Shown here: in pieces, positions 11,807 to 40,295 of the stretch
How positions within the stretch are numbered: position 1 is the first letter of the stretch
Layout of the letters: each line of letters opens with the position of its first letter
Assembly (NCBI RefSeq): GCF_900156625.1
Contig: NZ_FTOB01000004.1
Location: 62,001 to 126,000, forward strand
Length of the DNA stretch: 64,000 nucleotides
Direction of reading: 5' to 3'
Source of the DNA: Zobellia uliginosa
GTDB lineage: Bacteria > Bacteroidota > Bacteroidia > Flavobacteriales > Flavobacteriaceae
Program-made: the position numbers and the translations under genes
Notes under the pieces: generated by a model
Seen by the model: the letters and a program-made list of their open reading frames with translations, nothing else
Told to the model about the DNA's origin: nothing
Database searches by the model: none

Positions 11807-11850
11807 CTGACATATATCATATTTTAAACAGCTTAACAAAGTTAAGTTTG
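11807..11850 (+). promoter_or_regulatory. hemN promoter with FNR/CRP-type box
   Basis: The dyad CTGACATATATCAT (11807-11820) is followed by the exact -7 element TAAGTTTG (11843-11850), a start-to-start distance of 36 nt. The ATG of hemN is at 11871. The spacing puts the box near -41, the class II activator position. Confidence 0.75.
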
Positions 11851-11870
11851 TATAAAACAAGATACGATTT

Positions 11871-13232
11871 ATGTGCAGTCTAGTTCAAAAATACAATGTG
11901 GCAGGTCCGCGATACACCAGTTACCCTACTGTTCCTTATTGGAATATGGATACTTTTTCTAGCAAGAAGTGGCAATCGACCCTGATCCAAAGTTTTGAGG
12001 AAAGCAATGCGAAAGAAGGTATTAGCCTGTACATACACTTGCCCTTTTGTGAGAGTATGTGTACGTTTTGTGGTTGCCATAAACGCATAACCCAACGGCA
12101 TGAGGTTGAGGAACTGTATATTCGTACCGTGTTGAAGGAGTGGAAGTTGTATTGCGACCTCTTTTCTCAGCGGCCCATAATCAAAGAACTTCATTTGGGG
12201 GGCGGTACCCCTACTTTCTTTACTCCACAGAACCTCAAGAACCTGATCAATGGCATATTTAGCATGGCCAAAAGGGCCGAAGACTACGAATTTAGTTTTG
12301 AGGGGCATCCAAACAACACCACCAAAGAACATTTACAGGCACTGTACGATGTAGGGTTTAGGCGGGTCAGTTTTGGGGTGCAAGATTACAATGTCAAAGT
12401 ACAACAGGCCATCCATCGCATTCAGCCTTTTGCGAATGTAAAAAACGTAACGCAATGGGCCAGGCAGATCGGTTATACATCGATTGGCCATGATATTATT
12501 TTCGGACTTCCTTTTCAGAAGGAGGAACACGTTCGCGAAACTATATTGAGAACCAAGGAACTGCGCCCAGATCGTTTGGCCTTTTATAGCTATGCCCATG
12601 TGCCTTGGTTAAAGGGTAACGGGCAAAGAGGGTATAAAGATGCCGATTTGCCTTCGGCCGAAGAGAAGCGCCAACAGTATGAAACCGGTAAGGCCTTATT
12701 GGCCGAGGTCGGGTACCGTGAAATCGGTATGGACCACTTTGCCCTTCCTACCGATGCATTGTATAAATCTATGCAATCGGGTGAATTGCACCGTAACTTT
12801 ATGGGGTACACGGCCTCTAAGACCCAAGCAATGATTGGTTTGGGAGCCTCTAGTATCAGTGATAGTTGGTATAGCTTTGCTCAAAATGTTAAAGGTATCG
12901 AAGAGTACCAACATTTGGTGGAAAACAACGTTATTCCAGTGTATCGAGGTCATATTCTCACCGATGAAGATCGCGTGATAAGAAAGCACATCTTAAATTT
13001 GATGTGCGGGTTTAAAACCTCTTGGTCGCTGCCGAGCCTGCGTTTTGAGGCAATTGACGAGGTGCGGGAAAGGTTGCGTGAAATGGAACGGGATGCTTTG
13101 GTGCTTGTCGTTGAAGATGGGGTAGAGGTCACCGAAAAGGGACGTCCGTTCATTCGTAACATTTGTATGGCATTTGATGTGCTTTTACATAAAAAGGAAC
13201 CGGAAAAAAGATTATTTTCAATGACAATTTAA
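11871..13232 (+). CDS. hemN: Oxygen-independent coproporphyrinogen III oxidase (radical SAM)
   Basis: 453 aa, the length of true HemN. The radical-SAM cluster motif CESMCTFCGC (CxxxCxxC plus the extra Cys typical of HemN) is near residue 62, and LHLGGGTPTFFTP follows near 107. It catalyses anaerobic oxidative decarboxylation of coproporphyrinogen III to protoporphyrinogen IX, supplying haem when oxygen is low. The promoter carries an FNR-type box at the same spacing as the cbb3, nos and usp promoters, so it probably belongs to the same micro-oxic regulon. A universal stress protein gene follows after 30 bp. A second, shorter HemN-like gene lies at 58714. Confidence 0.93.
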   Translation: MCSLVQKYNVAGPRYTSYPTVPYWNMDTFSSKKWQSTLIQSFEESNAKEGISLYIHLPFCESMCTFCGCHKRITQRHEVEELYIRTVLKEWKLYCDLFSQRPIIKELHLGGGTPTFFTPQNLKNLINGIFSMAKRAEDYEFSFEGHPNNTTKEHLQALYDVGFRRVSFGVQDYNVKVQQAIHRIQPFANVKNVTQWARQIGYTSIGHDIIFGLPFQKEEHVRETILRTKELRPDRLAFYSYAHVPWLKGNGQRGYKDADLPSAEEKRQQYETGKALLAEVGYREIGMDHFALPTDALYKSMQSGELHRNFMGYTASKTQAMIGLGASSISDSWYSFAQNVKGIEEYQHLVENNVIPVYRGHILTDEDRVIRKHILNLMCGFKTSWSLPSLRFEAIDEVRERLREMERDALVLVVEDGVEVTEKGRPFIRNICMAFDVLLHKKEPEKRLFSMTI

Positions 13233-13262
13233 TAGGCCCTAATCTTCTAAAATAGAAATATT

Positions 13263-14084
13263 ATGAAAAAAATTATAGTACCTCTAGATTTCTCCGAACA
13301 GTCTGAATATGCGCTTAAGGTTGCCGTATCGTTGGCAAAAAAGCATGGTTCGGAAATACTGGCCTTACACATGCTGGAACTCAATCAGGCCATGATTACT
13401 TCTTCCGAAGGCTTTCATCCTGAACAGACCGTTTTTCTGATAAAACTGGCAGAGAAAAGGTTCAATGAATTTTTAAAGAAACCTTATTTGGAAGGTGTGA
13501 AGGTTACACCGATCATCAAACACTACAAAGTTTTCAGTGAGGTGAATGCCATAGCCGAAGAGCACAAGGCCGATCTTGTTGTTATGGGCTCACATGGTAC
13601 CGATGGTCTCGAAGAGATCTTTATAGGGTCGAATGCCGAAAAGGTAGTACGAAATTCTGAAGTGCCCGTATTGGTCATTAAGAACGAAATCGCTAATTTT
13701 AGTATAAATCGTTTTGTTTTTGCCTGCGATTTTAAAGAAGAAAGTATCTCGGCCTATAAAAAGGCCAAGGCATTTGCCGATTTATTAAAAGCCGATTTAG
13801 ACTTGGTGTATATCAATACGCCGGGCGATAATTTTTTAAGTTCAGCGGATATCTACAAACGTGTAAACGCTTTTATCGGTAAGGTAAACGAGGCCTTACA
13901 GGTAGAGATCTATAACGATTATAGTGTAGAACGCGGGGTATTGAATTATAGCGAAAACAACAGTGCCGATGCCATAGGGATACCTACCCATGGACGTAGG
14001 GGACTATCCCATTTCTTTATGGGTAGTATTGGAGAGGACATCGTGAACCACTCCAAGATTCCTGTCGTTACGTTTAAAATATAG
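13263..14084 (+). CDS. Universal stress protein, two UspA domains
   Basis: 273 aa made of two UspA folds. The first opens with KKIIVPLDFSEQSEYAL and contains GSHGTDGLEEIFIGS (GxxG-x9-GS, the ATP-binding pattern). The second ends with HGRRGLSHFFMGS, which fits the same pattern. ATP-binding Usp proteins act in stress and energy-starvation responses; the partner is unknown. It follows hemN after 30 bp and is probably read from the same FNR-type promoter. A second gene of this type at 40323 has its own box of the same type. Confidence 0.9.
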   Translation: MKKIIVPLDFSEQSEYALKVAVSLAKKHGSEILALHMLELNQAMITSSEGFHPEQTVFLIKLAEKRFNEFLKKPYLEGVKVTPIIKHYKVFSEVNAIAEEHKADLVVMGSHGTDGLEEIFIGSNAEKVVRNSEVPVLVIKNEIANFSINRFVFACDFKEESISAYKKAKAFADLLKADLDLVYINTPGDNFLSSADIYKRVNAFIGKVNEALQVEIYNDYSVERGVLNYSENNSADAIGIPTHGRRGLSHFFMGSIGEDIVNHSKIPVVTFKI

Positions 14085-14112
14085 ATGCACTTAAACTTTA
14101 TGCAACTATTAG

Positions 14113-14146
14113 GCCGGTCCGTTTCATACGGACCGGCTATTTTTTT
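14113..14146 (+). terminator. Intrinsic terminator after hemN-usp
   Basis: GCCGGTCCGT (14113-14122) pairs perfectly with ACGGACCGGC (14128-14137) around a 5-nt loop, followed by TATTTTTTT. It ends the hemN-usp unit just before the convergent oxidoreductase gene. Confidence 0.9.
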
Positions 14147-14157
14147 ACCGGTTCGGG

Positions 14158-15549
14158 TTAGCCGATCTTCATTTCTTCGGGGTTCCAGTTTACGGGTTCT
14201 TTTTTGTAATAGCTTTCATTGGCCAATAAGGCCGCGCCAGCGGCCCGTAGTCCGAACGTAGGGTCTTGAACGACCTTTCCGTTTTTGCGAATGGCGGTGA
14301 AGAAATTATAAAAATGATCGTGGTGGCCACCTTTGTAGTTCTTTGGTGCCTGCCATTTGCTTGTTCCTGTGGCCAAGGCCGAAGTACGGGGGTCTAAGTT
14401 TTGTTGGGCATACCCGTTCCTGATTTGTTCTTGCATGGCTTCGGGAAAGGAAATCATCGAATAACCACCGGGTACTAGGTTGAGTTTGGAGCGTTTTAGG
14501 GAAACGGAATTTTGGCCAACTTCCATTTCGCCTTCGGTCCCGATCAGTTTAAAGCCACTTCCTCCCCCGCTTCCGGCGATGAAGTTGATGCGAAAGGCCG
14601 CATTGAAGGCTGCGTGGGTCGCCGTCTTTGGATAATCGTAAAGGGTGATGCTTACATCAGGTACGTCCCTGCCATCCTTCCAATAGCGAAGGCCTCCGGT
14701 AGCCATGGCTCGGTTCGGGCCATGGGAGTCGATAACGTAGTTCAAGGTAGAGAATGCGTGAACAAAGAGGTCTCCGGCAACACCTGTGCCGTAATCCCTA
14801 TAATTTCTCCATCTAAAAAATCGTTTCGGTTCAAATTTTACCTTGGGCGCTTGCCCTAAAAACGTATCGAAATCAACGGTTTTTTTGTTTGCGTCGGGTG
14901 GGATCGGATATTGCCAAGCACCCTCTGCCGAGTATCGGTCATTATAAAAATCGAGCATTACAATATCTCCAATGGCCCCTTCTTGGTAGAGCTGCTTTGC
15001 CTTTTCATTGCCTAAGGAAGCCATTCCCTGACTTCCTACTTGACATATCTTGCCAGAAGCTTTTTGGGCCTCTATTATGGCTTGTCCGTCTTGCCAATCT
15101 TGTACCATAGGTTTTTCGCAGTAGACGTGTTTTCCGGCCTTAAGGGCGTCTATGGCAATTTGTTTGTGCCAGTGGTCGGGCGTGGCGATAATCACGGCGT
15201 CAATATCTTTTCTTTTGAGGATTTCCCTATAGTCGCGGGTGGTGAAAATATTATCGCCCCACAATTCCTTGGCCCTTTCGAGTCGGCCCGTATAAAGGTC
15301 GCATGCGGCAACCAGCTTTATGCCGGAAACGGTGAGCGCGGCCTTGGTGTCGAAAATACCCTGAATACCGGTTCCGATCAAGGCCAGTTGTATTTGGTCA
15401 TTTGAGGAGAGCACCTTGGTGTCGTATTCGCGTTGCATTAAGATGCTTTCGTCTTTTGATGCCGATAAGATTAAGGGGGCAGAAGTCACTGCTGCGGAAC
15501 CTAAGGCTGCTTTTTTAAGGAAATACCTTCTTGAGTTGTCTTGTTTCAT
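14158..15549 (-). CDS. Exported Gfo/Idh/MocA-family oxidoreductase
   Basis: 463 aa. The N-terminus SRRYFLKKAALGSAAVTSAP is a twin-arginine-type signal, so export by Tat is expected. A Rossmann domain follows (IALIGTGIQG-like stretch LALIGTGIQGIFDTKAAL, residues about 53-70), then HVYCEKPMVQDWQDG with the EKP motif and a C-terminal alpha/beta substrate domain. Members use tightly bound NAD(H) in sugar dehydrogenation or, in GH109, glycoside hydrolysis. The substrate here cannot be named. It is monocistronic, convergent with the hemN-usp unit and divergent from the nos promoter. Confidence 0.82.
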   Translation of the reverse strand: MKQDNSRRYFLKKAALGSAAVTSAPLILSASKDESILMQREYDTKVLSSNDQIQLALIGTGIQGIFDTKAALTVSGIKLVAACDLYTGRLERAKELWGDNIFTTRDYREILKRKDIDAVIIATPDHWHKQIAIDALKAGKHVYCEKPMVQDWQDGQAIIEAQKASGKICQVGSQGMASLGNEKAKQLYQEGAIGDIVMLDFYNDRYSAEGAWQYPIPPDANKKTVDFDTFLGQAPKVKFEPKRFFRWRNYRDYGTGVAGDLFVHAFSTLNYVIDSHGPNRAMATGGLRYWKDGRDVPDVSITLYDYPKTATHAAFNAAFRINFIAGSGGGSGFKLIGTEGEMEVGQNSVSLKRSKLNLVPGGYSMISFPEAMQEQIRNGYAQQNLDPRTSALATGTSKWQAPKNYKGGHHDHFYNFFTAIRKNGKVVQDPTFGLRAAGAALLANESYYKKEPVNWNPEEMKIG

Positions 15550-15634
15550 GTAATAGGTCAGGGTTTTGTTCGGTCAACCGATGAATTTACAATTTTCTAC
15601 CGATCCCTGATTTCTTTTTGAGGAAAATAAAAAA

Positions 15635-15648
15635 AGACATTTTTGTCC
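15635..15648. promoter_or_regulatory. NsrR/Rrf2-type dyad in the nos promoter
   Basis: AGACATTTTTGTCC is an imperfect dyad that matches, allowing purine and pyrimidine exchanges, GGATAAAAATATCC before the Rrf2 gene (26178) and GGATAATTTTGTCC before ric (25666). It ends 6 bp before the FNR-type box. Its link to the Rrf2 protein is inferred from shared sequence. Confidence 0.5.
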
Positions 15649-15654
15649 TATTTA

Positions 15655-15698
15655 CTGATATATATCATGTTTTTCGCCTCGTATAGCACCTATTTTTG
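15655..15698 (+). promoter_or_regulatory. nos promoter with FNR/CRP-type box
   Basis: CTGATATATATCAT (15655-15668) contains the perfect dyad TGATATATATCA. The exact -7 element TATTTTTG (15691-15698) starts 36 nt after the box. The first gene of the cluster begins at 15728. Confidence 0.78.
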
Positions 15699-15727
15699 TT
15701 GAAAATTTAATCATTAAACCACTCAAA

Positions 15728-16240
15728 ATGAAAATAGTAGTTAAAAGTGTAGTGCTGATTTTTTCGCTTTTGCTTATGGCCTGTGGAGGCAAGGAAGAAA
15801 AGAAGAAAGAAGGATTTAGTGTAGATCGTGAAAAGGCAAAAACGGAAAAGCCGGCCGAGGCGGTACCTGCTACCAGTGCAGTACCGGCATCTCAACGTAT
15901 CGATCTTGAGAACAAGGGGGTCGGCCCGGTAAAATCGGTGACCCTGTCTCCCGATATCGACGAGGCCTTGGCCAAAAAAGGGGAGGAAATCTATACCCAA
16001 ATGTGTTTGGCCTGCCATAGGGTCGATAAAAAATTCATAGGTCCGGCACCAACGGGTATTTTAAAAAGACGTAGTCCCGAGTGGGTTATGAACATGATCC
16101 TAAACCCAGAGGTAATGGTAAAAGAAGATCCGTTGGCAAAAGAGCTTATTGCCGAATTCAACGGGGCTCCGATGTCGAACCAAGGCTTGACCGAAGACCA
16201 GGCCCGAAGCGTACTGGAATTTTTTAGAACGCTCGAGTAG
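15728..16240 (+). CDS. Lipoprotein mono-haem cytochrome c of the nos cluster
   Basis: 170 aa. A signal peptide ends in the lipobox LLMAC (Cys about residue 19), followed by a charged Lys/Glu linker and a class I cytochrome c domain with one CLACH haem site near residue 95 and a likely axial Met in APMSNQGLT. It should be anchored in the periplasm and pass electrons to nitrous oxide reductase, as cytochromes c do in other clade II nos clusters. It is the promoter-proximal gene, 65 bp before nosZ, under the composite FNR/NsrR-like promoter. Confidence 0.85.
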   Translation: MKIVVKSVVLIFSLLLMACGGKEEKKKEGFSVDREKAKTEKPAEAVPATSAVPASQRIDLENKGVGPVKSVTLSPDIDEALAKKGEEIYTQMCLACHRVDKKFIGPAPTGILKRRSPEWVMNMILNPEVMVKEDPLAKELIAEFNGAPMSNQGLTEDQARSVLEFFRTLE

Positions 16241-16305
16241 TGTGGGCCATTAAAGTCCACGGCTGTTTATACAGCATAAATAAGATAACCACAAAAACAG
16301 TACAA

Positions 16306-18267
16306 ATGAAAAAATATACCTTTCACCTATTCGCGATTTTAGGGATGGCCTTGTTCCTCTCTAGTTGCGGTGACCAGAACGGCAAGGCGTCCTCAAATAG
16401 TGGACTATCGTCGAACAATGCGGAAAAAGTGTACGTTGCCCCTGGAGAGCATGATGAGTTTTATGCTTTTATGTCGGGCGGGTATAGCGGTAACCTTACG
16501 GTTTACGGACTCCCTTCGGGAAGAATGTTCAAAGAGATTCCCGTTTTTTCGCAGTTTCCTACCTCGGGTTATGGATATTCGGAAGAAACAAAACCCATGT
16601 TGAACACATCTTTCGGTTTCGTTCCTTGGGATGATGCCCACCACCCCGATATTTCACAGACCAATGGGGAGTTAGACGGTAGATGGATCTTTATTAATGG
16701 GAACAACACGCCAAGAATTGCCCGGATCAGCTTGAGCACGTTCGAGACCGAGGAAATTATGGAGGTCCCCAACAGTGCGGGGAACCATAGCTCTTCTTTT
16801 GTTACCGAAAATACCGAGTATGTAGTGGCCGGAACCCGTTTTTCGGTGCCTATTCCCCAAAGGGATATGCCGATTAACGAGTACAAGGGTAATTTTAGGG
16901 GCTCACTTTCCTTCATAAGCGTTGATCCCGAAGACGGCCATATGGACCTGAAGTTTCAAATCTTGATGCCAGGGTTTAATTACGACCTATCACATCCGGG
17001 TAGGGGCAAATCCCATGGATGGTTTTTCTTTACTACCTACAATACCGAAGAGGCAAATTCACTTTTAGAGGTAAACGCTTCGCAAAACGATAAAGATTTT
17101 ATCGCTGCGGTGAATTGGAAGAAAATTGAAGAGTATGTGGCCAATGGAGGAGGTACAATGATGCCGGCCGAGTATGCCCACAATGTGTACGATGAAGAAA
17201 CCCATACGGCCACTTCCACCCTAAAAAAGGAAGTCTTGACCATAGACCCGACCAAAGTACCGGGAACCGTTTACTTCTTGCCTACACCAAAATCGCCCCA
17301 TGGGGTAGATGTAGATCCTTCGGGAGAGTATATCATCGGTAACGGAAAGCTATCGGCCGATCTTACGATCCATTCCTTCGATAAAATGGTGGCAGCGATC
17401 GAAGCTAAAAAATTCGACGGAGAAGCTTATGGCATCCCTATCTTGAAATTCGAAGATGTACTTGCGGGAACCGTGAAAAGTGGCGGATTGGGTCCCTTGC
17501 ATACCGAGTTTGATGGAGAAGGAAATGCCTATACAACCTTCTTTATTTCCTCTGAAGTGGTGATGTGGAAGTTGGGTACATGGGAAGTTGTCGATAGAAA
17601 ACCTACCTATTATTCCGTGGGACATTTAATGATACCTGGGGGAAACTCTAGGAAGCCCTTCGGTAAATACGTGGTGGCCATGAACAAAATAACCAAAGAC
17701 AGGTACCTGCCCACAGGTCCCGAATTGGAGCATTCAGCCCAGATTTATGATATCTCCGGAGATAAAATGGAGCTTATTTACGATTTTCCCACCCACGGCG
17801 AACCCCATTATGCAGCGGGTATACCCGCTGAACTTTTGGCCCCGAAATCTAAGAAAATCTATAAACTTTCAGAGAACAAACATCCCTTTGCCGCAACCGG
17901 CCCCGCCGATTCTAAAGTGGTAAGGGAAGGGAATGAGGTTCATATTTACATGTCTATGATCCGAAGCCACTTTACCCCTGATAATATAGAAGGTATTAAA
18001 GTGGGAGACAAGGTGTATTTTCATGTCACCAACCAAGAACAAGATTTTGATGTGCCCCATGGTTTTGCCATGATCGGTGCGAATAACTCCGAATTGCTGA
18101 TTATGCCAGGACAGACCAAATCTCTGGTATGGGAGCCTAAAAAAGCAGGGGTATGGCCATTTTATTGTACCGATTTCTGTTCCGCTTTGCACCAAGAAAT
18201 GCAAGGTTATATAAGAGTGTCGCCGGCAGGTTCAAATACTGAGCTGTCGTGGTCCCTCGGGGAATAA
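16306..18267 (+). CDS. nosZ: Nitrous oxide reductase, clade II (Sec-dependent)
   Basis: 653 aa from ATG 16306. The frame extends to 16240, but MKKYTFHLFAILGMALFLSSC is a lipoprotein-type Sec signal, as in clade II enzymes. No Tat signal is present. The beta-propeller carries the CuZ histidine motifs (DDAHHPD, EYAHN, SPHGVDV, GPLHTEFDG, EPHYAAG). The C-terminal cupredoxin has the CuA set CTDFCSALHQEM (Cys about 621 and 625, His 629, Met 632). It reduces N2O to N2 in the periplasm. The gene lies between its cytochrome c and the accessory genes. No nosR is seen, which is normal for clade II clusters. No nitrite or NO reductase gene is in the window. Confidence 0.96.
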   Translation: MKKYTFHLFAILGMALFLSSCGDQNGKASSNSGLSSNNAEKVYVAPGEHDEFYAFMSGGYSGNLTVYGLPSGRMFKEIPVFSQFPTSGYGYSEETKPMLNTSFGFVPWDDAHHPDISQTNGELDGRWIFINGNNTPRIARISLSTFETEEIMEVPNSAGNHSSSFVTENTEYVVAGTRFSVPIPQRDMPINEYKGNFRGSLSFISVDPEDGHMDLKFQILMPGFNYDLSHPGRGKSHGWFFFTTYNTEEANSLLEVNASQNDKDFIAAVNWKKIEEYVANGGGTMMPAEYAHNVYDEETHTATSTLKKEVLTIDPTKVPGTVYFLPTPKSPHGVDVDPSGEYIIGNGKLSADLTIHSFDKMVAAIEAKKFDGEAYGIPILKFEDVLAGTVKSGGLGPLHTEFDGEGNAYTTFFISSEVVMWKLGTWEVVDRKPTYYSVGHLMIPGGNSRKPFGKYVVAMNKITKDRYLPTGPELEHSAQIYDISGDKMELIYDFPTHGEPHYAAGIPAELLAPKSKKIYKLSENKHPFAATGPADSKVVREGNEVHIYMSMIRSHFTPDNIEGIKVGDKVYFHVTNQEQDFDVPHGFAMIGANNSELLIMPGQTKSLVWEPKKAGVWPFYCTDFCSALHQEMQGYIRVSPAGSNTELSWSLGE

Positions 18268-18297
18268 AGGAAGGGCACAGGAGTATTTGTTCAAACG

Positions 18298-18333
18298 AAA
18301 AGCAGGTCGTGTACCAAGACCGGCCTGCTTTTT
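18298..18333 (+). terminator. Hairpin with T-tract after nosZ
   Basis: AAAAGCAGG (18299-18307) pairs with CCTGCTTTT (18324-18332), with a further inner GGTC/GACC stem possible. It ends in a T-run. Placed between nosZ and the accessory genes, it would lower their transcription relative to nosZ. Confidence 0.7.
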
Positions 18334-18381
18334 AAAAATACCGGCCTGTTCAATAGCTGTGAATTTTAAGATAGAGGTAAG

Positions 18382-19026
18382 ATGAAAAAGGCAAGTATAC
18401 TAATGATATTGGGGTCTTTATGTTTGTTGGGACTGTTTCAGTTTCCACTTTGGAATATAATGCTGGGCGCACCGCAATATCCCGAGCCCTTGGGTATGAA
18501 TATCCATATTACGGGCATTCAAGGGGTGTCTGAATTCGACCTTCAAAACATTGACGGACTCAACCACTACATTGGTATGAAGACGATTCCCAAAGCCGAC
18601 GAGATGTGGGAGTTTAATATATTTCCTATAGTAATAATCGCCATGGTACTCTTAGGGGCATTATTGGGGATACTCGGTTTTTTTGGTAAAATTGACTACC
18701 GGTTTTTCTTGGGTTGGTTCTTACTAATGTCTATCTTAGGAATCATGGGGATGTATGATTTTAATCTATGGTTGACCGATTACGGTTCAAACCTAGATCC
18801 TCACGCTATTATTAAGGTAGTCAATGAAGACGGTACGCCCATGAGCTATAAACCGCCGCTTTTTGGGTACAAAAAGTTGTTGAATTTTGATGTCAGTTCA
18901 ATGCCGGCCACGGGAGCATGGTTAATGTTCATAGGTATGTTGTTGACGGTAATCGCATTTTTTGTAGGACGGAAGAGCAAAAATTCTGTTTCATCTGAAA
19001 AAAAGCATAAATTGGTTACACCATGA
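18382..19026 (+). CDS. Four-helix membrane protein of the nos cluster (NosB-like position)
   Basis: 214 aa with hydrophobic segments near residues 5-25, 80-105, 110-130 and 175-200 and a periplasmic loop between the first two that is rich in His, Met and Pro (PQYPEPLGMNIHITGIQG). The family is not recognised with certainty. In clade II clusters a membrane protein called NosB often follows nosZ, and the position here matches. Its stop overlaps the ATG of nosL by 4 bp (ATGA), so the two are translationally coupled. A role in copper delivery or electron supply to NosZ is inference only. Confidence 0.6.
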   Translation: MKKASILMILGSLCLLGLFQFPLWNIMLGAPQYPEPLGMNIHITGIQGVSEFDLQNIDGLNHYIGMKTIPKADEMWEFNIFPIVIIAMVLLGALLGILGFFGKIDYRFFLGWFLLMSILGIMGMYDFNLWLTDYGSNLDPHAIIKVVNEDGTPMSYKPPLFGYKKLLNFDVSSMPATGAWLMFIGMLLTVIAFFVGRKSKNSVSSEKKHKLVTP

Positions 19027-19469
19027 AAAGTTGTAAAATACTCATTTTGATGGGCCTTTTGGTAATTTCGGCTTGTAAGGGCGAACCTAAACCCATAGCA
19101 TACGGTGGTGAGGGCTGCCAATTTTGTAGCATGACCATTGTCGATAAGCAACATGCCGCCCAATTTATGACGAAGAAAGGAAGGAGTTACTCCTTTGATG
19201 CGGTAGAGTGTATGCTCAACTACTTGAAAGACGTAGAACCTGAATCGGTGGCCCTTTATCGGGTTAACGATTACAATAACCCCGGGGTCTTTATCGATGC
19301 CACCACGGCTACGTATTTGATCAGTAAGAACATACCCAGCCCCATGGGGGCGTTTTTGACGGCCTTTGCCAATGAAGAAGAAGCGAGTAGCGCCCAGTCA
19401 GGAAATACGGGTATGATTTATTCATGGCCCGAGCTCAGAGTTAAATTTGAAAAAGATAACCCATTTTAA
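19023..19469 (+). CDS. nosL: NosL copper lipoprotein
   Basis: 148 aa. Lipobox LVISAC (Cys about residue 19), then the NosL signature GGEGCQFCSMTIVDKQHAAQ with the CxxCxM copper-binding motif, and SFDAVECML as in other NosL proteins. NosL is an outer-membrane-anchored Cu(I) chaperone needed for copper-site assembly in NosZ. It overlaps the preceding membrane protein gene by 4 bp and is followed after 13 bp by an FMN-barrel protein gene. Confidence 0.92.
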   Translation: MKSCKILILMGLLVISACKGEPKPIAYGGEGCQFCSMTIVDKQHAAQFMTKKGRSYSFDAVECMLNYLKDVEPESVALYRVNDYNNPGVFIDATTATYLISKNIPSPMGAFLTAFANEEEASSAQSGNTGMIYSWPELRVKFEKDNPF

Positions 19470-19482
19470 ACCCCAAGAAACT

Positions 19483-19944: not shown

Positions 19945-20184
19945 GGTTTACTTCCAGTTTGCGCCATACCCGATGTATACACCGTCTGAAATCGTACCGA
20001 TAGAGGTAGGTTTCGATCGTTTCATACTTATGGGCCTGTATTTTATTGGTTCTTGGTGTCGTTTCGGTCGTTTTAAGCCATGTTTTTAGGAAGTGTTCGC
20101 TAGGGGATTTACCGCCGACCTTTGTCGCTATGGGGAAAGGTGAAGCAAACGAACCCACGAGGTTGCCAAACTTCTCAAATAAAG

Positions 20185-22908: not shown

Positions 22909-22923
22909 TACATTGCCGATACA

Positions 22924-26633: not shown

Positions 26634-27902
26634 TTAGTTCTTGAAGCGTTCGTACGTGGCCTTTTCCAATTCTTCCCTAAAGTCAGGATGGGCTATGGCA
26701 ATTAGGGCCTGTGCCCTTTCCTTTAGGTTTTTTCCGAAGAGATTGGCCACACCGTATTCGGTCACAACATAGTGCACGTGGGCCCTGGTTGTGGTAACCC
26801 CGGCGCCCTGTTTTAGAAAGGGCGTAATTTTGGAAACGCCTTTTGCCGTAAGTGAGGGCATGGCGAAAATAGGTTTGCCGCCTTTTGAAAGCGACGCACC
26901 GCGAATGAAATCCATTTGGCCCCCGACCCCCGAGTATTGGCGACTGCCGATGGTGTCGGCACAGATTTGACCGGTGAGGTCTATTTCAATGGCACTGTTT
27001 ATGGCCGTTACTTTTGGGTTTCTTCTTATGATGGCCGTATCGTTGGTATAGGCGGCTTCCTTAAAATGTACCGAGGGATTGTCATCTACAAAGTCGTATA
27101 GTTTTTGCGACCCCACGGCAAAGCAAGTAACGATCTTTCCGGTCTTGATCTGTTTGTCTTCCCCGGTGACTACACCTTGTTCGATCAAGGGTAGTATACC
27201 GTCGGAAAACATTTCGGTATGGATGCCAAGGCGTTTGTGGTTGCCCAGATTGCTCAATACGGCATTAGGTATACTTCCAATACCCATTTGCAGGGTGGCA
27301 CCGTCTTCGATAAGGCCGGCCACGTTTTTACCTATTTTTGCCTCTACGGGAGATATGGAAACAATGTCGTGGGCGTGGATCGGACTGTCGATTTCAATGG
27401 CGCAGTCAATATTTTTTATATGGATAATACCGTCTCCATGCGTTCTGGGTACCGAGGGGTTGATTTGGGCAATGACCTTTTTGGCGACCTGAATGGCCGG
27501 AAGGGCCACATCTACCGAGACACCCAAAGAACAATACCCGTGTCGGTCTGGCGGCGAAACCTGTACTATGGCTACGTCAATGGGTAAAATGCCCTGTCTG
27601 AACAAAAGGTGGATCTCACTCAAAAAAATTGGAATATAATCACCTTGGGTACTGTTGACCACGTTTCTTACATTACCGCCCACAAAACAGCTATTCATTC
27701 TAAAGCTCTTGTTGTAGGGTTCACGTGCGTATTTTGCCTCGCCTTCGGTGTGTATCGAAACGATTTCAACGTCTTTTAATTCCTTATGTCTGTCGCATAA
27801 AGCGTCTATAAGCGTATTGGGCGTCATTGCTGCCCCCTGTAAAAATACGCGGTCTCCTGATTTTATTGTCGATACGGCTTCTTCCTTTGAAACAATTTTC
27901 AT
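26634..27902 (-). CDS. Acetyl-CoA hydrolase/transferase family protein
   Basis: 422 aa, class I CoA-transferase fold. FLQGAAMTPNTLIDAL is near the start, the Gly-rich GIGSIPNAVLSNLG near residue 205, and the likely catalytic Glu in GIHTEMFSDG near 228. VVTEYGVANLFGKNL closes the family pattern. It resembles 4-hydroxybutyrate/acetate CoA-transferases and acetyl-CoA hydrolases; which one cannot be settled. An FNR-type box at 27952-27965 places it in the micro-oxic regulon, suggesting a role in acetate overflow or CoA-thioester balance at low oxygen. The globin gene follows after 22 bp. Confidence 0.88.
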   Translation of the reverse strand: MKIVSKEEAVSTIKSGDRVFLQGAAMTPNTLIDALCDRHKELKDVEIVSIHTEGEAKYAREPYNKSFRMNSCFVGGNVRNVVNSTQGDYIPIFLSEIHLLFRQGILPIDVAIVQVSPPDRHGYCSLGVSVDVALPAIQVAKKVIAQINPSVPRTHGDGIIHIKNIDCAIEIDSPIHAHDIVSISPVEAKIGKNVAGLIEDGATLQMGIGSIPNAVLSNLGNHKRLGIHTEMFSDGILPLIEQGVVTGEDKQIKTGKIVTCFAVGSQKLYDFVDDNPSVHFKEAAYTNDTAIIRRNPKVTAINSAIEIDLTGQICADTIGSRQYSGVGGQMDFIRGASLSKGGKPIFAMPSLTAKGVSKITPFLKQGAGVTTTRAHVHYVVTEYGVANLFGKNLKERAQALIAIAHPDFREELEKATYERFKN

Positions 27903-27921: not shown

Positions 27922-27965
27922 CAAATATCAAGAATAGGGCTTCTTTAAAATATGAACATTATCAT
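27922..27965 (-). promoter_or_regulatory. CoA hydrolase promoter with FNR/CRP-type box
   Basis: Reverse-strand box ATGATAATGTTCAT (27965 to 27952) is followed 36 nt later (start to start) by GATATTTG (27929 to 27922), which matches TAnnTTTG at all fixed positions but the first. The gene starts at 27902. Confidence 0.65.
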
Positions 27966-30043: not shown

Positions 30044-30070
30044 AAGCGAGATGTTTGGTGGCCGTGGCCG

Positions 30071-30775: not shown

Positions 30776-30782
30776 AGTCTTT

Positions 30783-31229: not shown

Positions 31230-31248
31230 GATTTTCCTTTTTTTAATC

Positions 31249-32667: not shown

Positions 32668-32712
32668 TTTATGTTCGCTTTATCAGCTTTCGGGGCCTTG
32701 GTCCCGCAATAT

Positions 32713-33666: not shown

Positions 33667-33854
33667 AATTCTAGGTTTTGTTGGTTATCTTCTTCCAAGG
33701 GCAATTCGCTCACTTCTTTTATGTACGATTTCGAGGCGGTGAAGACCCACCAGAACAACAATGTGAAAAACACAAAGAAGATAAGTAACGATATCATGGG
33801 GTAGGTTGCTACGCCATCGATACTTTCCATGTAACCTTTTACAAATTTGAGCAT
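33663..33854 (-). CDS. ccoQ: Cbb3 oxidase small subunit CcoQ/FixQ
   Basis: 63 aa with one membrane helix (YPMISLLIFFVFFTLLFWWVFTASKSYI) and an acidic tail, the CcoQ pattern, though the N-terminal MLKFVKGYMESIDGVA is longer than usual. It stabilises the oxidase complex. It lies between ccoNO (5-bp gap) and ccoP (4-bp overlap). Confidence 0.85.
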   Translation of the reverse strand: MLKFVKGYMESIDGVATYPMISLLIFFVFFTLLFWWVFTASKSYIKEVSELPLEEDNQQNLEL

Positions 33855-33859
33855 GATCT

Positions 33860-36064
33860 TTAGTTTTTGTTGTCAGATAATATTTCACCGGTTTCCTTGA
33901 CCTTGATATCGGTTCCTAACCTTTGTAGGTAGGCGATTAAGGCTACGATTTCTCGGTCTCTCATTTCTATGAACTCTTCGCCGTTTTCTGCGGCATTGGC
34001 TTTATCGGCCTCATAGTTCTTGGCAAAATCGGGATCCGTATACAGGTTTTTCTCGATTTGTTCTGCCTGTGCATCCATAAGGGCATCGGCGTTTGCTATT
34101 TCCTCTTCGGTATAGGGTACCCCTAGGGTGACCATGGCTTTCATTTTTTTCTGTATATCACTGCGGTCGTGCTTGTTGCGCACTAGCCATGAATATGAGG
34201 GCATGATAGAGCCTGAAGAGGTACTTTGTGGGTCGTACATGTGGTTCAAGTGCCAGTTGTCGGAATATTTACCGCCTACCCTGAGCAAATCGGGACCGGT
34301 ACGTTTACTTCCCCAAAGGAAGGGGTGGTCGTACACGAATTCACCTGCCTTTGCGTATTCACCATAACGCTCTACCTCACTTCTGAAAGGACGTACCATT
34401 TGCGAGTGGCAACTTACACAGCCTTCACGGATATAGAGGTCACGGCCTTCCAATTCTAAAGGTGTATAGGGTTTTACACTGGTTATGGTAGGAATGTTCG
34501 ATTTTACCAAAAGTGTAGGTACGATCTGGATAATACCCCCGATCAAAATGGCTACAGTGGCCAAAATGGTCAACTGAATAGGCTTGCGCTCCAACCAAGT
34601 ATGGAAGGTTTCTCCAGCGGTTCTGTGCTTTGAAACGCGGGTCAAGGCAGCGGCTTCGGCCAATTCGTCTTCTATGGTACTACCGGAACGTATAGTTCTG
34701 ACCACGTTATAGATCATTACACAGGCACCTGTGATATATAGGGTTCCACCAATGGCACGCATCCAGTACATCGGCATGATTTCGTGTACGGTCTCTAAGA
34801 AGTTACCGTAAACCAAGGTGCCGTCTGGGTTGAAGTCTTTCCACATCAAGGCTTGGGTAAATCCGGCCACGTACATGGGTAAGGTATATAGAATGATACC
34901 CAAGGTACCGATCCAAAAGTGGAAGTTTGCCAAACTGGTCGAGAACAATTTGTTCTTGGTCATTTTAGGTACCAACCAGTAGATCATACCAAAGGTCAAG
35001 AAACCGTTCCAGGCCAAGGCCCCTACGTGTACATGGGCAATGATCCAGTCGCTAAAGTGTGCAATGGCATTTACGTTTTTAAGTGAAAGCATAGGGCCTT
35101 CAAAAGTGGCCATACCATAACCGGTAATCGCTACCACCATAAATTTTAAGACGGGATCGGTACGAACCTTGTCCCAAGCACCACGCAAGGTTAAAAGTCC
35201 GTTGATCATACCTCCCCAAGAAGGGGCCAAAAGCATGATGGAAAACGCAACCCCTAGGTTTTGTGCCCAATCAGGTAATGCGGAATACAATAAATGGTGA
35301 GGTCCGGCCCAGATGTAAATAAAGATCAAAGACCAAAAGTGGACTATAGATAATCTATACGAGTATACCGGTCGGTTCGCGGCTTTTGGAACGTAGTAGT
35401 ACATAAGGCCCAAAAATGGTGTGGTCAAGAAGAAGGCCACCGCATTATGTCCGTACCACCACTGCACCAAGGCATCTTGAACGCCCGCATAGACCGAATA
35501 ACTTTTTAAGGCACTAACAGGAAGTTCCAGATTGTTGAAAATATGTAGAACGGCTACGGTAACGAAGGTTGCCAGATAAAACCAAATGGCCACGTAAAGG
35601 TGACGTTGTCTCCTTTTGAGCATGGTACCGATAAGGTTGGCACCAAATGCCACCCATACCAAGGTAATGGCGATATCTATGGGCCATTCAAGTTCGGCGT
35701 ATTCTTTGGTGCTGGTGTATCCTAATGGCAAGGTTATGGCTGCCGATACAATTATGGCCTGCCAGCCCCAAAAATTGAATTTACTCAAGAAGTCACTGTA
35801 CATACGGGCCTTGAGCAATCGTTGCGTTGAGTAATAGACCCCCGCGAAAATAGCATTTCCTACAAATGCGAAAATCACCGCATTGGTGTGTAATGGGCGC
35901 AAACGGCCAAAACTTAACCATGATATTCCGTCGGTCAAGTTGGGAAACATGAACATAAAGGCTAGCAATAAGCCTACGGACATACCCACAATACCCCAGA
36001 ACATGGTTGCATAGAGGAAATTTTTCACGATTTTGTTATCGTAATAAAACTGCTGTACTTCCAT
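33860..36064 (-). CDS. ccoNO: Fused cbb3 oxidase subunits I and II (CcoN-CcoO)
   Basis: 734 aa. Residues about 1-475 are CcoN, with 12 membrane helices and the haem/copper ligands in [32 protein letters not shown] and [14 protein letters not shown]. After one further membrane helix (about 505-525) comes CcoO with one haem c site, [14 protein letters not shown], and [17 protein letters not shown] natural fusion of N and O is common in Bacteroidota. The enzyme is a high-affinity proton-pumping terminal oxidase for low oxygen. Second gene of the operon, 2 bp after ccoS. Confidence 0.97.
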
Positions 36065-36066
36065 AA

Positions 36067-36276
36067 TTATACCTGTTTATTTAGTTGGATTTTTTCTTTG
36101 TTTTTCTTGGTGGAGACATCTTTTTGCTTCTTTACCAGCTCATCTTCAAAAAGCATACGTACCGATGGGGTATACGAATCATCGTACTGACCGCTCTTTA
36201 CCGAAACGATAAATGCAATGAAAAATAAGACCGCAACTAGAACGCTGATGGCCAATAACACATAAATAACACTCAT
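36067..36276 (-). CDS. ccoS: Cbb3 oxidase maturation protein CcoS
   Basis: 69 aa. [46 protein letters not shown] has the single membrane helix and the GQYDD...P..R.LFEDE tail of CcoS. It is required for cofactor insertion into CcoN. It is the first gene of the oxidase operon, downstream of the FNR-type promoter. Confidence 0.93.
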
Positions 36277-36295
36277 ACCTACCTGAATTATGCCG

Positions 36296-36339
36296 TAAAA
36301 CTACGGCGTGTGTACCCGATTAAATATGACTTATATCAG
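36296..36339 (-). promoter_or_regulatory. cbb3 operon promoter with FNR/CRP-type box
   Basis: Reverse-strand box CTGATATAAGTCAT (36339 to 36326) lies 36 nt (start to start) before TAGTTTTA (36303 to 36296), a one-mismatch -7 element. ccoS starts at 36276. Confidence 0.75.
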
Positions 36340-36476
36340 GTTTTGACGATTCTCTTAAAGTTTCTTAATTATCATATGTAAACATTTGATTTATAAAAAG
36401 ATAAAATAATCGTATTACTGAAAAAAAATATTTGAAAAGATATAGGTAAAGAGTAAATGGGCCTAGGTTTGAAATC

Positions 36477-36911
36477 TTAAGCCTTTTTGGCGCCCTGATA
36501 GATAGAAACTAATGCAGCAACGATAATCAAATTCTTGATAACATATTGGCCGAGCAATGTAGGGGCGAATGGGCTGAAAGTGAAAGAGGCCTCGTTTAGA
36601 AGCAACAAGGTCGAAAAGGTACAGACCATATGCAATAAGGTCACGATAACGGTCTGCTTCCTGAATAAATCGAAAAGCAGGAATGTGCCGATACCGACTT
36701 CCAAAAGGGCTAGAAGTACAATTGAAACATTCGGGGGGATAAGGCCAAAGGTCAATGATGTAATGGTTTCTTTGGCCAATTCTTCGGCTGGACTTACATC
36801 GTTGAAGAATTTAAGTACTCCGAACCAGAGATATACAATGGCTATCGATATCTGAAGGAAAGAGATTTTTTTAAAATGGTTTAAAATCGAAGAGGTATTG
36901 AAAGTTGGCAT
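36477..36911 (-). CDS. DoxX-like membrane protein
   Basis: 144 aa with four hydrophobic segments. The first contains ISIAIVYLWFGVLKFFNDVSPAEELA, typical of DoxX/YkgB-like proteins. Function in the cell is unsettled for the family. It lies between the ccoI gene and the cbb3 operon on the same strand with its own -7 candidate, TAGGTTTG (36956 to 36949). A 10-bp palindrome ACGGATCCGT lies just upstream at 36967-36976. Confidence 0.7.
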   Translation of the reverse strand: MPTFNTSSILNHFKKISFLQISIAIVYLWFGVLKFFNDVSPAEELAKETITSLTFGLIPPNVSIVLLALLEVGIGTFLLFDLFRKQTVIVTLLHMVCTFSTLLLLNEASFTFSPFAPTLLGQYVIKNLIIVAALVSIYQGAKKA

Positions 36912-37025
36912 TTATACTTAAAACGAGTTTGGTGGATTGTTGGTTTTGCAAACCTAACTTTTTAAACGGATCCGTCTAGATTTTTCACGATGAAGTTGCA
37001 AATTTGAACGTTATAACTTACAACA

Positions 37026-39422
37026 TCAGTCAATATTTCTGCCTATAAAATTAGTGGCTACCGTGGTAAATGCCACGACGCTAATGGAGCTTAGGGGCAT
37101 TAAGATGGCCGCAATAACCGGCTCTAATTGCCCTGTAACCGCAAAATAAAGTCCAATTAGGTTATAGGTCAAAGATAGGATAAAACTCATTTTTATGACC
37201 TTCATGGCTTTTTTAGAGGCCTGGATGTATTGGTGCAACTGTTTAAATTTGCTGGCATCCATAATGCCATCACTGGCAGGTGAAAATACATTGATGTTCT
37301 CAGAAATGGCAAGGCCTACTTCGGCTTGGGCCAAGGCACCGGCATCGTTAAGTCCGTCACCTACCATCAGTACTTTTTTGCCCTGTTCTTGTAGGGATTT
37401 AATAAATTCGAGCTTATCCTGTGGTTTTTGGCCAAAATACAAGGGGGTGAGCTTTGGCAACAATTTTTCAAGGCGCTGCTTTTCACCTTCGTTGTCGCCC
37501 GAGAGTACGGCTACATTAAAATTTTTAGACATTTTTTCGAATACCTGGGAAACCCCTTCTCGGTATTCATTGTGAAAGATATACTTGCCCTTATAGGTGT
37601 CGTTGCTGCTGATATGAACCGCCGTGGTAAGGGCATCCGTAGTTTTTCCGTTACCTACAAAGTCGGCCGATCCCGCTTTAATGTGCTCGTTGTCCTTAGT
37701 TCCTTCTACGCCTTTGCCGATGTGTTCTTCGTATTCGTCAAGGGTAACGATATTCTCTTCGGCCAATAGGTTGTAGAGTGATCGGCTCAAGGGGTGGTTC
37801 GACCCCCTTAGGGTATTCTTTAATAGGGAGGCCTCGGCTTCCGTAAGGGGCATGCCCTCATAGGTGGCCGTGCTCTTTTGGGCAGTGGTTATCGTACCTG
37901 TTTTATCAAAAATAGCCGTATCTATTTGGGCCAATTGCTCAATGGTTTGTGTGTCTTTTAAATAAAATTTCTTACGGCCGAAGATTCGGAGCATGTTGCC
38001 AAGGGTAAAGGGTGACGAAAGGGCAATGGCGCATGGGCAGGCAATGATCAAGACCGCGGTAAAGACGTTCAGGGCCTTGCTCGGGTCAAAATAGAGCCAG
38101 AAAATGGCCGATAAAGAGGCAATGCTGAGCACGGCTATGGTAAACCTTCGGCCGATACTGTCGGTCAGGGTCTGAAACGTACTGGCCTTGTCTTCCTGAA
38201 AAACGGAATTGCTCCACAATTGGGTGAGGTAACTTTGTGAGACTGATTTTAAGGCTTCCATCTCTATGGCACCTTGTAGTTGTTTTCCGCCGGCAAAGAC
38301 TTTCTCCCCAGATTCTTTTTTTACCGGTTCCGATTCGCCCGTAACAAAGCTATAGTCGATACGAGCCTGTCCTTTAATGAGGATGCCGTCAACGGGAATC
38401 AGCTCTTCGCTTCGGATCAGTAGGCGGTCGCCTCTTTCGATATCGTGTACTTGGGCGGTTTCTTCCTTGCCGTCTTTGGTGATGCGGGTTATGGCAATAG
38501 GGAAATACGATTTGTAGTCACGTTCGAAGGAAAGGAAGGAATAGGTCTTTTGCTGAAAGAACTTTCCTAAGAGCAAGAAGAAAACCAATCCCGTAAGCGA
38601 ATCGAAAAAACCGCTTCCCCAATCAAAGACAATATCCAGGGTGCTGCGAACAAAGAGCACGAAGATTCCAAGGGCAATGGGTACGTCAATATTCAACATT
38701 TTACTACGGATGCCTTTGTAGGCCGAAATAAAATAATCCCTGCCGGCATAAAGAAGTACCGGTAGCGAAAACAAGAATATAAGCCAATGAAAGACCGGTT
38801 CGTATTTGTTGAGCCAGTATTCGCCGCCGGATGCATTGCTTGACGATAGGTCAAAATAGTCGGGAAACGACAGGAACATCACATTGCCAAAGGCAAAACC
38901 TGCTACCCCAAGTTTGTAGATAAGGCTACGGTCGGCACTTTTCTTCTTTTTGTCGAAATCATCTAGGGAGATATAGGGCTCATAACCGATACGGGCCAGT
39001 AGCACCACGACTTCCTTTAGTGAAATATCGGAACTGCTATATGTAATGCGTACCGTCTTTTTGGGGAAATTTACTTGGGTGCTCTTGATATAATGGTTTA
39101 GCTTGTTCAGGTTTTCAAGAACCCAGATACACGAGCTACAGTGAATATGTGGGATATAAAGGTTGACGATCTGTAAGTTGCCGTCATTGAACTCAATAAG
39201 TTTTTCTGCGATTGGAGTTGAATCTAAAAAATCGTATCTTCCATCAATTGATTTCGGGGATGCCCCGGCCGCAGATTGCAAGTCGTAATAATAATCGAGG
39301 TCATGGCCCGATAATATTTCGTACACGGTCTTGCAACCGTGGCAGCAAAAATTTTTATCGTCTAGTGCGATTGGGTTATTGCCACAGTCGTCGCCGCAAT
39401 GGAAACAGTTGTTAGATTTCAT
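37026..39422 (-). CDS. ccoI: Copper-transporting P1B-type ATPase for cbb3 oxidase (CcoI/FixI)
   Basis: 798 aa from ATG 39422 (MKSNNCFHCG). A longer frame to 39449 runs over the -7 element and is rejected. The N-terminal Cys-rich part (CFHCGDDCGNN, FCCHGCKTVYEIL) is followed by a degenerate HMA domain with HCSSC, eight membrane helices with CPCAIALSSPF, the phosphorylation motif DKTGTIT and GDGLNDAGALAQA. CcoI-type ATPases export Cu(I) slowly for insertion into cbb3 oxidase. It is divergent from the fnr-type gene and shares with it one FNR-type box. Confidence 0.94.
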   Translation of the reverse strand: MKSNNCFHCGDDCGNNPIALDDKNFCCHGCKTVYEILSGHDLDYYYDLQSAAGASPKSIDGRYDFLDSTPIAEKLIEFNDGNLQIVNLYIPHIHCSSCIWVLENLNKLNHYIKSTQVNFPKKTVRITYSSSDISLKEVVVLLARIGYEPYISLDDFDKKKKSADRSLIYKLGVAGFAFGNVMFLSFPDYFDLSSSNASGGEYWLNKYEPVFHWLIFLFSLPVLLYAGRDYFISAYKGIRSKMLNIDVPIALGIFVLFVRSTLDIVFDWGSGFFDSLTGLVFFLLLGKFFQQKTYSFLSFERDYKSYFPIAITRITKDGKEETAQVHDIERGDRLLIRSEELIPVDGILIKGQARIDYSFVTGESEPVKKESGEKVFAGGKQLQGAIEMEALKSVSQSYLTQLWSNSVFQEDKASTFQTLTDSIGRRFTIAVLSIASLSAIFWLYFDPSKALNVFTAVLIIACPCAIALSSPFTLGNMLRIFGRKKFYLKDTQTIEQLAQIDTAIFDKTGTITTAQKSTATYEGMPLTEAEASLLKNTLRGSNHPLSRSLYNLLAEENIVTLDEYEEHIGKGVEGTKDNEHIKAGSADFVGNGKTTDALTTAVHISSNDTYKGKYIFHNEYREGVSQVFEKMSKNFNVAVLSGDNEGEKQRLEKLLPKLTPLYFGQKPQDKLEFIKSLQEQGKKVLMVGDGLNDAGALAQAEVGLAISENINVFSPASDGIMDASKFKQLHQYIQASKKAMKVIKMSFILSLTYNLIGLYFAVTGQLEPVIAAILMPLSSISVVAFTTVATNFIGRNID

Positions 39423-39446
39423 GTTACACTTGCTAATACCTATTTG

Positions 39447-39520
39447 CAAAGATGCAAAAGGTAGGTGTTAAAAAATATGACAATTATCAGGTTTAACACG
39501 GTCGGTGAAGGTTATCTTTG
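39447..39520. promoter_or_regulatory. Shared bidirectional ccoI/fnr promoter with one FNR/CRP-type box
   Basis: The box ATGACAATTATCAG (39477-39490; reverse CTGATAATTGTCAT) sits midway. To the right TATCTTTG (39513-39520, exact -7) starts 36 nt from the box's left end. To the left, on the reverse strand, CATCTTTG (39454 to 39447) starts 36 nt from its right end. One dyad can therefore serve both genes. Confidence 0.75.
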
Positions 39521-39545
39521 CATAGTCAGGTATAATTAATGGTGT

Positions 39546-40235
39546 ATGAGCAGCAGATGTGAAAATTGTATAATACGACAATTTAATTCGTTACGTGCGA
39601 TGAGCAAGGAGGAATTAAAGAAAGTATCCGATTCCAAGGTTTCCAAAAAACTTAAAAAAGGCGAGGCACTATTTCAGGAGGGCGAGCAGCTTAATGGGGT
39701 TTTTTGCGTAAGGACCGGGGTTTCAAAACTGTCGAAACTAAGTGCGAACGGAAAAGACCAGATCGTTAAACTGGCCAGTAAGGGGGAGGTAATGGGCCAA
39801 CGTGCCGTGATTGCCGAAGAAGTCACCAATTTGAGCGCAATCGCGGTAAGTGATATGGAGGTCTGTTTTATACCAAAGGATGTAATTTCCAATACGCTCG
39901 ATCAAAACCCGAACTTTGCGGTTGAGGTCTTGCGGCATATGGCTCACGATCTAAAGGAAGCTGATGACGTTATCGTAAACATGTCTCAAAAAACGGTAAA
40001 GCAGCGAATGGCCGAGGCCTTTTTATACCTTAGAAAAAACTATGGGGACGATACCGATGGTTTCTTGAACTTAGTGCTCTCTCGTGAAGATTATTCAAAT
40101 GTGGTAGGAACCGCTACCGAATCATGTATCCGGATTATTTCGGAGTTCAAGAAGAAGGGCTTGATCAAAACTTCCGGAAAAAAAATAGGGGTGCTCGACG
40201 AACGTAAACTCTTGGAACTCGCCGAAAGATTCTAA
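39546..40235 (+). CDS. Crp/Fnr-family transcriptional regulator
   Basis: 229 aa. An N-terminal CENC pair (C5, C8) precedes the cyclic-nucleotide-binding-type barrel, which adds C54 and C107. The C-terminal Crp winged helix has the recognition helix GTATESCIRIISEFKK. The Glu and Arg (E-x-x-x-R) that read TGA half-sites in CRP and FNR are kept. E. coli FNR uses C20, C23, C29 and C122, so a four-Cys Fe-S site is possible here but with different spacing. It is the best candidate to bind the six dyads, including the one in its own promoter. Confidence 0.9.
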   Translation: MSSRCENCIIRQFNSLRAMSKEELKKVSDSKVSKKLKKGEALFQEGEQLNGVFCVRTGVSKLSKLSANGKDQIVKLASKGEVMGQRAVIAEEVTNLSAIAVSDMEVCFIPKDVISNTLDQNPNFAVEVLRHMAHDLKEADDVIVNMSQKTVKQRMAEAFLYLRKNYGDDTDGFLNLVLSREDYSNVVGTATESCIRIISEFKKKGLIKTSGKKIGVLDERKLLELAERF

Positions 40236-40251
40236 ACCGGACATTCCAAAA

Positions 40252-40295
40252 CTGACATATGTCATAGTTTACCTATGGCTTTGCATCTACTTTTA
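40252..40295 (+). promoter_or_regulatory. usp promoter with FNR/CRP-type box
   Basis: CTGACATATGTCAT (40252-40265) is followed 36 nt later by TACTTTTA (40288-40295), the same one-mismatch -7 form as in the cbb3 promoter. The usp gene starts at 40323. Confidence 0.72.

Follow-up and report, generated by a model that had tools for sequence, protein, structure and literature searches.

In a 64,000-nucleotide (nt) stretch of the Zobellia uliginosa genome (the window; contig NZ_FTOB01000004.1, forward-strand positions 62,001-126,000, with feature coordinates counted from window position 1), six FNR/CRP-type dyads stand at one fixed distance from a Bacteroidota -7 box (TAnnTTTG) in seven promoter directions, and the same spacing dominates in the whole genome and across the family Flavobacteriaceae. 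The best explanation, to which we assign a probability of about 0.87, is class II activation by the Fnr-like protein encoded in the window, with a second protein that joins a receiver domain to a Crp module (REC-Crp) probably using the same frame at TGACCTAGGTCA-type sites. The target genes (cbb3 oxidase, ccoI, a HemN-like enzyme, nos and nap) would suit a micro-oxic regulon. The regularity had been noticed in an initial annotation of the window, and that observation is right and understated.

Spacing between dyads and -7 boxes

All six 14-mer dyads reported in the initial annotation are present, and in all seven directions, as had been claimed, the octamer 36 nt after the dyad start is TAnnTTTG, exactly so at the hemN, nos and fnr promoters and with one mismatch at the other four. 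This distance corresponds to 23 nt between TGAN6TCA and the TA of the box (hereafter N23). The dyads, boxes and genes (lengths in amino acids, aa; ORF, open reading frame) are as follows.

11807..11820, + strand: dyad CTGACATATATCAT, hemN-like promoter
11843..11850, + strand: -7 box TAAGTTTG, exact TAnnTTTG, hemN-like promoter
11871..13232, + strand: radical SAM protein gene (Pfam PF04055), presumably HemN-like as in the initial annotation
15655..15668, + strand: dyad CTGATATATATCAT, nos operon promoter
15691..15698, + strand: -7 box TATTTTTG, exact, nos promoter
15728-16240, + strand: cytochrome c gene (Pfam PF00034)
within 16240-18267, + strand: nitrous oxide reductase gene (nos_propeller, PF18764)
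26634..27902, - strand: acetyl-CoA hydrolase/transferase gene (Pfam PF13336/PF02550)
27922..27929, - strand: -7 box GATATTTG, one mismatch, acetyl-CoA hydrolase/transferase promoter
27952..27965, - strand: dyad ATGATAATGTTCAT (read leftward), acetyl-CoA hydrolase/transferase promoter
33860..36064, - strand: fused CcoN-CcoO subunit of cbb3 oxidase (Pfam COX1 and FixO)
36067..36276, - strand: 69-aa ORF that begins 19 nt past the -7 box, which by position and composition we take to be CcoS-like
36296..36303, - strand: -7 box TAGTTTTA, one mismatch, cbb3 promoter
36326..36339, - strand: dyad CTGATATAAGTCAT (read leftward), cbb3 oxidase operon promoter
37026..39422, - strand: CcoI-like P-type ATPase, named as in the initial annotation
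39447..39454, - strand: -7 box CATCTTTG, one mismatch, ccoI promoter
39477..39490, both directions: dyad ATGACAATTATCAG, common to the divergent ccoI and fnr promoters
39513..39520, + strand: -7 box TATCTTTG, exact, fnr promoter
39546..40235, + strand: Fnr-like regulator gene, 229 aa
40252..40265, + strand: dyad CTGACATATGTCAT, universal stress protein (usp) promoter
40288..40295, + strand: -7 box TACTTTTA, one mismatch, usp promoter
40323..41225, + strand: universal stress protein gene (Pfam PF00582)

Two of the mismatched forms, the last-base A of the cbb3 box and the usp-type variant TAnTTTTA, are seen again in relatives. The weakest of the seven promoters is that at 27952, which has one imperfect half (TGAAC) and is in neither genome-wide composite list. 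Translation of ccoI likely starts at ATG 39422 rather than at the listed TTG 39449, because the latter overlaps the -7 box.

Such regularity had been called very unlikely to arise by chance, and the window bears this out: 6 of its 14 oriented TGAYN4RTCA dyads have a box with at most one mismatch at N23, against a mean of 0.14 per other spacing (n=110), and the five unused opposite dyad directions show 3-5 mismatches at +36. Under the looser definition TGAN6TCA, 7 of 38 have an N23 box, with 27952 entering only here by its imperfect half-site. The genome-wide scan proposed in the initial annotation, covering 5.30 Mb in 27 contigs, found enrichment: exact composites over N10-N40 numbered 32, of which 19 have N23 spacing while no other spacing occurs more than once (reversed-pattern control, 2), and allowing one mismatch anywhere gave 46 N23 places (control, 1). 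Among the 30 of these 46 places whose loci were inspected by eye, 16 have a start codon 10-34 nt past the box. A chance alignment of AT-rich motifs, for which the mismatches in four of the seven window boxes could be cited, is thus refuted by controls, as 19 of the 32 composites share one of 31 spacings; the counts around fnr loci and around REC-Crp loci fetched by protein, given below, argue the same way.

At class II Crp/Fnr promoters the activator site is centred near -41.5. In Z. uliginosa the first T of TAnnTTTG follows the dyad centre by 29.5 nt; as this box is mapped at -12 to -5 in Flavobacterium psychrophilum according to the accessible part of PMC9723704, the centre would fall at -41.5, with a T-tract at -33 to -30. 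This position, together with the fixed spacing to the core promoter, fits the class II geometry that the initial annotation had proposed. The ccoNO and nosZ promoters continue past the dyad with TCAT-n-TTTT and reach TAnnTTTG after a further 17 nt; their T fractions at -33 to -30 are 0.76-0.97 and 0.67-0.97, respectively. No class I spacing peak was found over N0-N110, the next-highest spacings having 9 (fnr loci) and 10 boxes (REC-Crp islands, see below) where N23 has 54 and 104, and none lying at a class I distance. We picture an Fnr-like dimer that would sit on the dyad against the T-tract, with the -7 box 17 nt past that tract; the fixed spacing would most simply reflect direct contact of the bound activator with RNA polymerase or sigma.

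The same position would also allow the dyads to be repressor sites that block sigma, as the site abuts the -33 region and occlusion is possible. We consider this very improbable: repressor sites would need no single fixed spacing, yet N23 dominates, and in F. psychrophilum the cbb3 and heme-synthesis genes rise under oxygen limitation (PMC9723704, accessible part, in whose main text the terms Fnr and Crp are absent).

Beyond the window, N23 places in the same genome include the following.

C13:24017: cluster with NapA
C13:27842: 430-aa ORF adjoining the NapA cluster
C12:42234: Usp-like ORF (by eye)
C6:448598 and 449028: two tandem 42-aa membrane ORFs
C16:61988: gene that we take to encode phosphoenolpyruvate (PEP) carboxykinase, beginning 144 nt away

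The two membrane ORFs start with MISQ (C6:448598-449200), and an identical TGATAATTATCATATTTT dyad stands before each at N23 from its -7 box. Places with no obvious downstream ORF, e.g., C16:91792, may be chance matches.

Conservation and co-occurrence with regulators

The family was searched in 149 genomes from 148 genera of Flavobacteriaceae. Among the 150 matches listed for TGAYAWWTRTCA over N18-N28 (465 were tallied), 125 are at N23, 12 at N22, and 8 at N24, and N23 likewise accounts for 32 of the 41 matches listed for TGAYYYRRGTCA. For the class outside this family, the 83 matches listed come from 19 of 28 genomes; N23 accounts for 40 of them, compared with a mean of 4.3 at each of ten other spacings. 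Beyond the class, most genomes of the phylum show 0-2 matches, in many cases not exceeding the reversed control, and some genomes (families f15 and f21) reach up to 7 matches with zero control matches.

An N23 site is found at 29 of 30 ccoNO loci and 29 of 30 nosZ loci, own genome included, with both misses in one relative (G037), where the nosZ locus has only 237 nt upstream and is too short to tell. Where the gene was found in relatives, all 9 hemN-like promoters pair their dyad with an exact box at N23, and the CoA hydrolase promoter keeps its N23 site in 1 of 2 (L283, with the same box GATATTTG). Inspection by eye of the fnr loci of 29 other genomes showed the leftward ccoI-side site in 25 of them, the fnr site itself (rightward) in 9, and the usp site further downstream in 17. 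Among the TGAYN4RTCA dyads of these loci, 54 boxes fall at N23, while the 110 other spacings average 1.27 and none exceeds 9. We also observed by eye that in 24 of the 26 loci with a ccoI-side site (L057-L085) its -7 box begins with C, G or A, which departs from TAnnTTTG in a recurrent way.

Composites follow the regulators as well. The mean number of pattern-A composites per genome is 5.00 where both regulators occur (n=40), 3.07 with an Fnr hit only (n=57), 3.04 with REC-Crp only (n=25), and 0.52 with neither (n=27). No such composite was found in 22 of the 27 genomes of the last group; the same is true of 7 of the 97 Fnr-positive genomes and of none of the 25 that have only REC-Crp. Leaving out eight Fnr hits of at most 39% identity changes the Fnr figure to 6 of 89, and among neither-regulator genomes of at least 3.0 Mb, 8 of 9 are without a composite.

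This distribution bears on the idea that the dyad is part of an extended promoter for a special sigma factor, with no dimeric activator, which would explain the fixed distance to the -7 box. That idea is more improbable still than a repressor: the dyad is two-fold symmetric, the one at 39477 serves two divergent promoters, the -7 box is the primary-sigma consensus, and occurrence tracks Crp/Fnr-type regulators.

The Fnr-like protein and a probable second reader

The Fnr-like protein has a cNMP-binding domain (PF00027) and a Crp-type helix-turn-helix domain (PF13545), both over cut-off. It had been said to keep the Glu and Arg that read TGA half-sites, and Glu192 and Arg196 are indeed invariant in all 30 aligned sequences (the closest 30 of the 97 genomes with an Fnr hit), as are C5, C8, C54, C107, and N14. 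In FNR, cysteines 20, 23, 29, and 122 are the cluster ligands. Three of these four are retained here: in the alignment to FNR of the Protein Data Bank (PDB), C5, C8, and C107 fall on three cysteines, N14 falls on the fourth (Cys29), with Asn there in 30/30, and C54 falls on an Ala. From this pattern, the protein probably carries an iron-sulphur cluster on C5, C8, C107, and the relocated C54. Two further Crp/Fnr paralogues of the same genome (C6:438190 and C8:194000) have a recognition helix without the Glu (TSRVVISR/TSRVVVSR) and probably read a different site; the stretch of each also holds an ORF beginning MKIEQIYTGCLA.

A second cluster of N23 sites, such as TGACCTAGGTCA, lies on another contig of the same genome, at C13:720-768 kb and 276-289 kb. 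The genes of these two stretches include Hsp20, patatin, PLD, Usp, FtsH, PEP synthase, the beta subunit of an alternate F1F0 ATPase, a ClC channel, a GH15 enzyme, and a UbiB-type protein whose match is below its cut-off. Within C13:716001-776000 we observed a stress/energy island of about 50 kb, many of whose genes are preceded by a class II-type site. Its central part encodes a PAS/GAF histidine kinase of 1092 aa and a REC-Crp protein of 355 aa; the latter combines PF00072, PF00027, and PF13545, and the adjoining kinase has PAS, HisKA, and HATPase_c domains, as befits a response regulator and its partner.

A strict REC-Crp orthologue (identity at least 54%; the next is 45%) occurs in 10 of the 149 genomes, and TGACCTAGGTCAT is found in 8 of these 10 against 5 of the 139 others. 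Pooling the 40-kb REC-Crp stretches of nine other genomes with 80 kb of the own genome gives 129 boxes at N23 against 171 over 30 other spacings (5.7 each), the own stretches having been picked for holding sites and some others placed to include sites already seen; the nine other genomes alone give 109 against 5.5 per other spacing. A less biased set of 72 loci of distant REC-Crp genes, fetched by protein alone (L142 left out), gives 383 against 16.5, but many of its loci come from few genera. C stands at the second position after TGA in 35% of the half-sites in the islands, compared with 12% around distant REC-Crp genes and 3% at fnr loci. The recognition helices differ little, with ESCIR in the window Fnr, ETAIR in 10 of 10 strict REC-Crp orthologues, and ESLIR in most distant REC-Crp proteins (the helix pattern missed 2 of 80 REC-Crp loci). 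No fnr gene was found beside REC-Crp in the 80 REC-Crp loci, where two weak matches fall inside the REC-Crp genes themselves. In five relatives (G071, G134, G110, G121, and G061) we observed a REC-Crp gene within ~1 kb of fnr, for example at G071:C1:1567938 and 1569957.

Fnr is probably not the sole reader, because genomes with REC-Crp only have such promoters and the TGACCTAGGTCA subtype follows the REC-Crp orthologue; on these sequence patterns, REC-Crp probably uses the N23 frame at the TGACCTAGGTCA-type island sites. It is a further step to hold that the main reader in the window itself is REC-Crp or a paralogue rather than the neighbouring Fnr. All 25 genomes with REC-Crp and no Fnr hit carry pattern-A composites, and the own genome has four HTH_Crp_2 proteins over cut-off, both of which lend that view some support. 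We nevertheless regard it as unlikely, given that the C that marks strict REC-Crp surroundings is rare at fnr loci and most window sites are of TGAYA type, that two of the other paralogues are without the Glu, and that in the same-genus genome G001, where Fnr is present and REC-Crp has no match at E <= 1e-60, the sites at fnr, usp, cbb3, hemN, and on the ccoI side are all retained.

Several points weigh against class II activation by Fnr with REC-Crp in the same frame. Four of the seven window boxes are imperfect, 14 of the 30 inspected N23 places lack a start codon 10-34 nt past the box, and the T-tract is weak in the islands (T fraction 0.37-0.65). Among the matches listed for other families of the class, N22 and N24 are elevated as well, with 12 and 11 next to 40 at N23. 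The cbb3 miss in G037 (L220) may be a real absence, because its ~294 nt upstream hold no dyad while the sites of other loci lie 251-540 nt upstream. There are the 7 of 97 Fnr-positive genomes without a pattern-A match and 5 of 27 neither-regulator genomes with 1-5 composites, many of the latter group being small or incomplete; for at least 9 of the 97 Fnr hits the best identity does not exceed 39%, and these are possibly paralogues. The compared sequences share ancestry, and p-values overstate their independence. Ile stands at the FNR Ser212 position in 30/30 (of the Glu209/Ser212/Arg213 helix, the Glu and Arg are present), and the NCBIfam FNR model PRK11161 matched at 104.4 bits, below its cut-off of 228, which is why we call the protein Fnr-like.

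Having weighed these, we still favour class II activation by the Fnr-like protein. At low oxygen, the protein, probably with its cluster, would bind the dyads and turn on the cbb3 oxidase, its copper pump, the HemN-like enzyme, nos, nap, and stress proteins, and REC-Crp beside the PAS kinase would act through the same frame at the TGACCTAGGTCA-type sites of its island. For the family as a whole, we lean slightly towards two parallel Crp-type systems on one invariant class II frame, namely a variant FNR with its fourth ligand moved to Cys54 and a phosphorelay-driven REC-Crp (half-site TGACCT) governing a low-energy/stress island (Hsp20, Usp, FtsH, PEP synthase, and the alternate F1F0 ATPase). 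If so, redox and kinase signals would meet at identical promoter geometry.

Comparison with known systems

In E. coli class II promoters, the FNR or CRP dimer sits at -41.5 on TGA...TCA half-sites read by a Glu and an Arg of the recognition helix. The Zobellia promoters share this centre, these half-sites, and both residues; the difference is the core promoter, where TAnnTTTG, the -7 box of Bacteroidota, occupies the coordinates of the E. coli -10 hexamer. In the rhizobial FixL/FixJ-FixK oxygen pathway, a PAS kinase and a response regulator act on a Crp-type regulator over cbb3 and stress genes; the island has a comparable arrangement, but with receiver domain and Crp module fused in one protein. 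The FNR oxygen sensor ("FNR type regulator", PDB 5E44/5CVR/9QLT, presumably of Aliivibrio fischeri) has the same domain order, with Cys5, Cys8, and Cys107 aligning with FNR 20, 23, and 122; the Zobellia protein differs by Asn14 at Cys29, the extra Cys54 at an FNR Ala, and Ile for Ser212.

Within the Bacteroidota, the Bacteroides Crp protein BT4338 is likewise a global regulator of the Crp family with a palindromic site (consensus TATGTTnTAnAACATA, sugar genes), and the accessible part of its description holds no rule for dyad/-7 spacing (PMC3878776). HcpR of Bacteroides and Porphyromonas is likewise an FNR-like regulator in this phylum; the accessible part of PMC1274295 gives the motif GTAACnnnnGTTAC in most HcpR2 genomes and predicted regulons that hold only hcp. 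In the freely accessible literature, searched by title and abstract start, no paper giving the N23 spacing or a REC-Crp regulon was found. The mechanism is known in kind; the papers searched describe neither its Bacteroidota form nor the variant Fnr or the second reader.

Bacteroidota promoters are unlike those of E. coli, and for this reason little is mapped of how transcription is activated in the phylum. With a 43-nt composite that a simple pattern search can find, one could predict where micro-oxic promoters of the family lie, which way they point, and where they start, nitrous oxide reductase and cbb3 oxidase among them. The composite also opens direct tests of an FNR with a different cysteine set and of a Crp-fused response regulator. 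Our data suggest that class II geometry was retained although the core promoter changed. Overall, the likeliest account is a mechanism ordinary in kind, but kept under a different core promoter, with a variant Fnr, and apparently shared with a REC-Crp phosphorelay.

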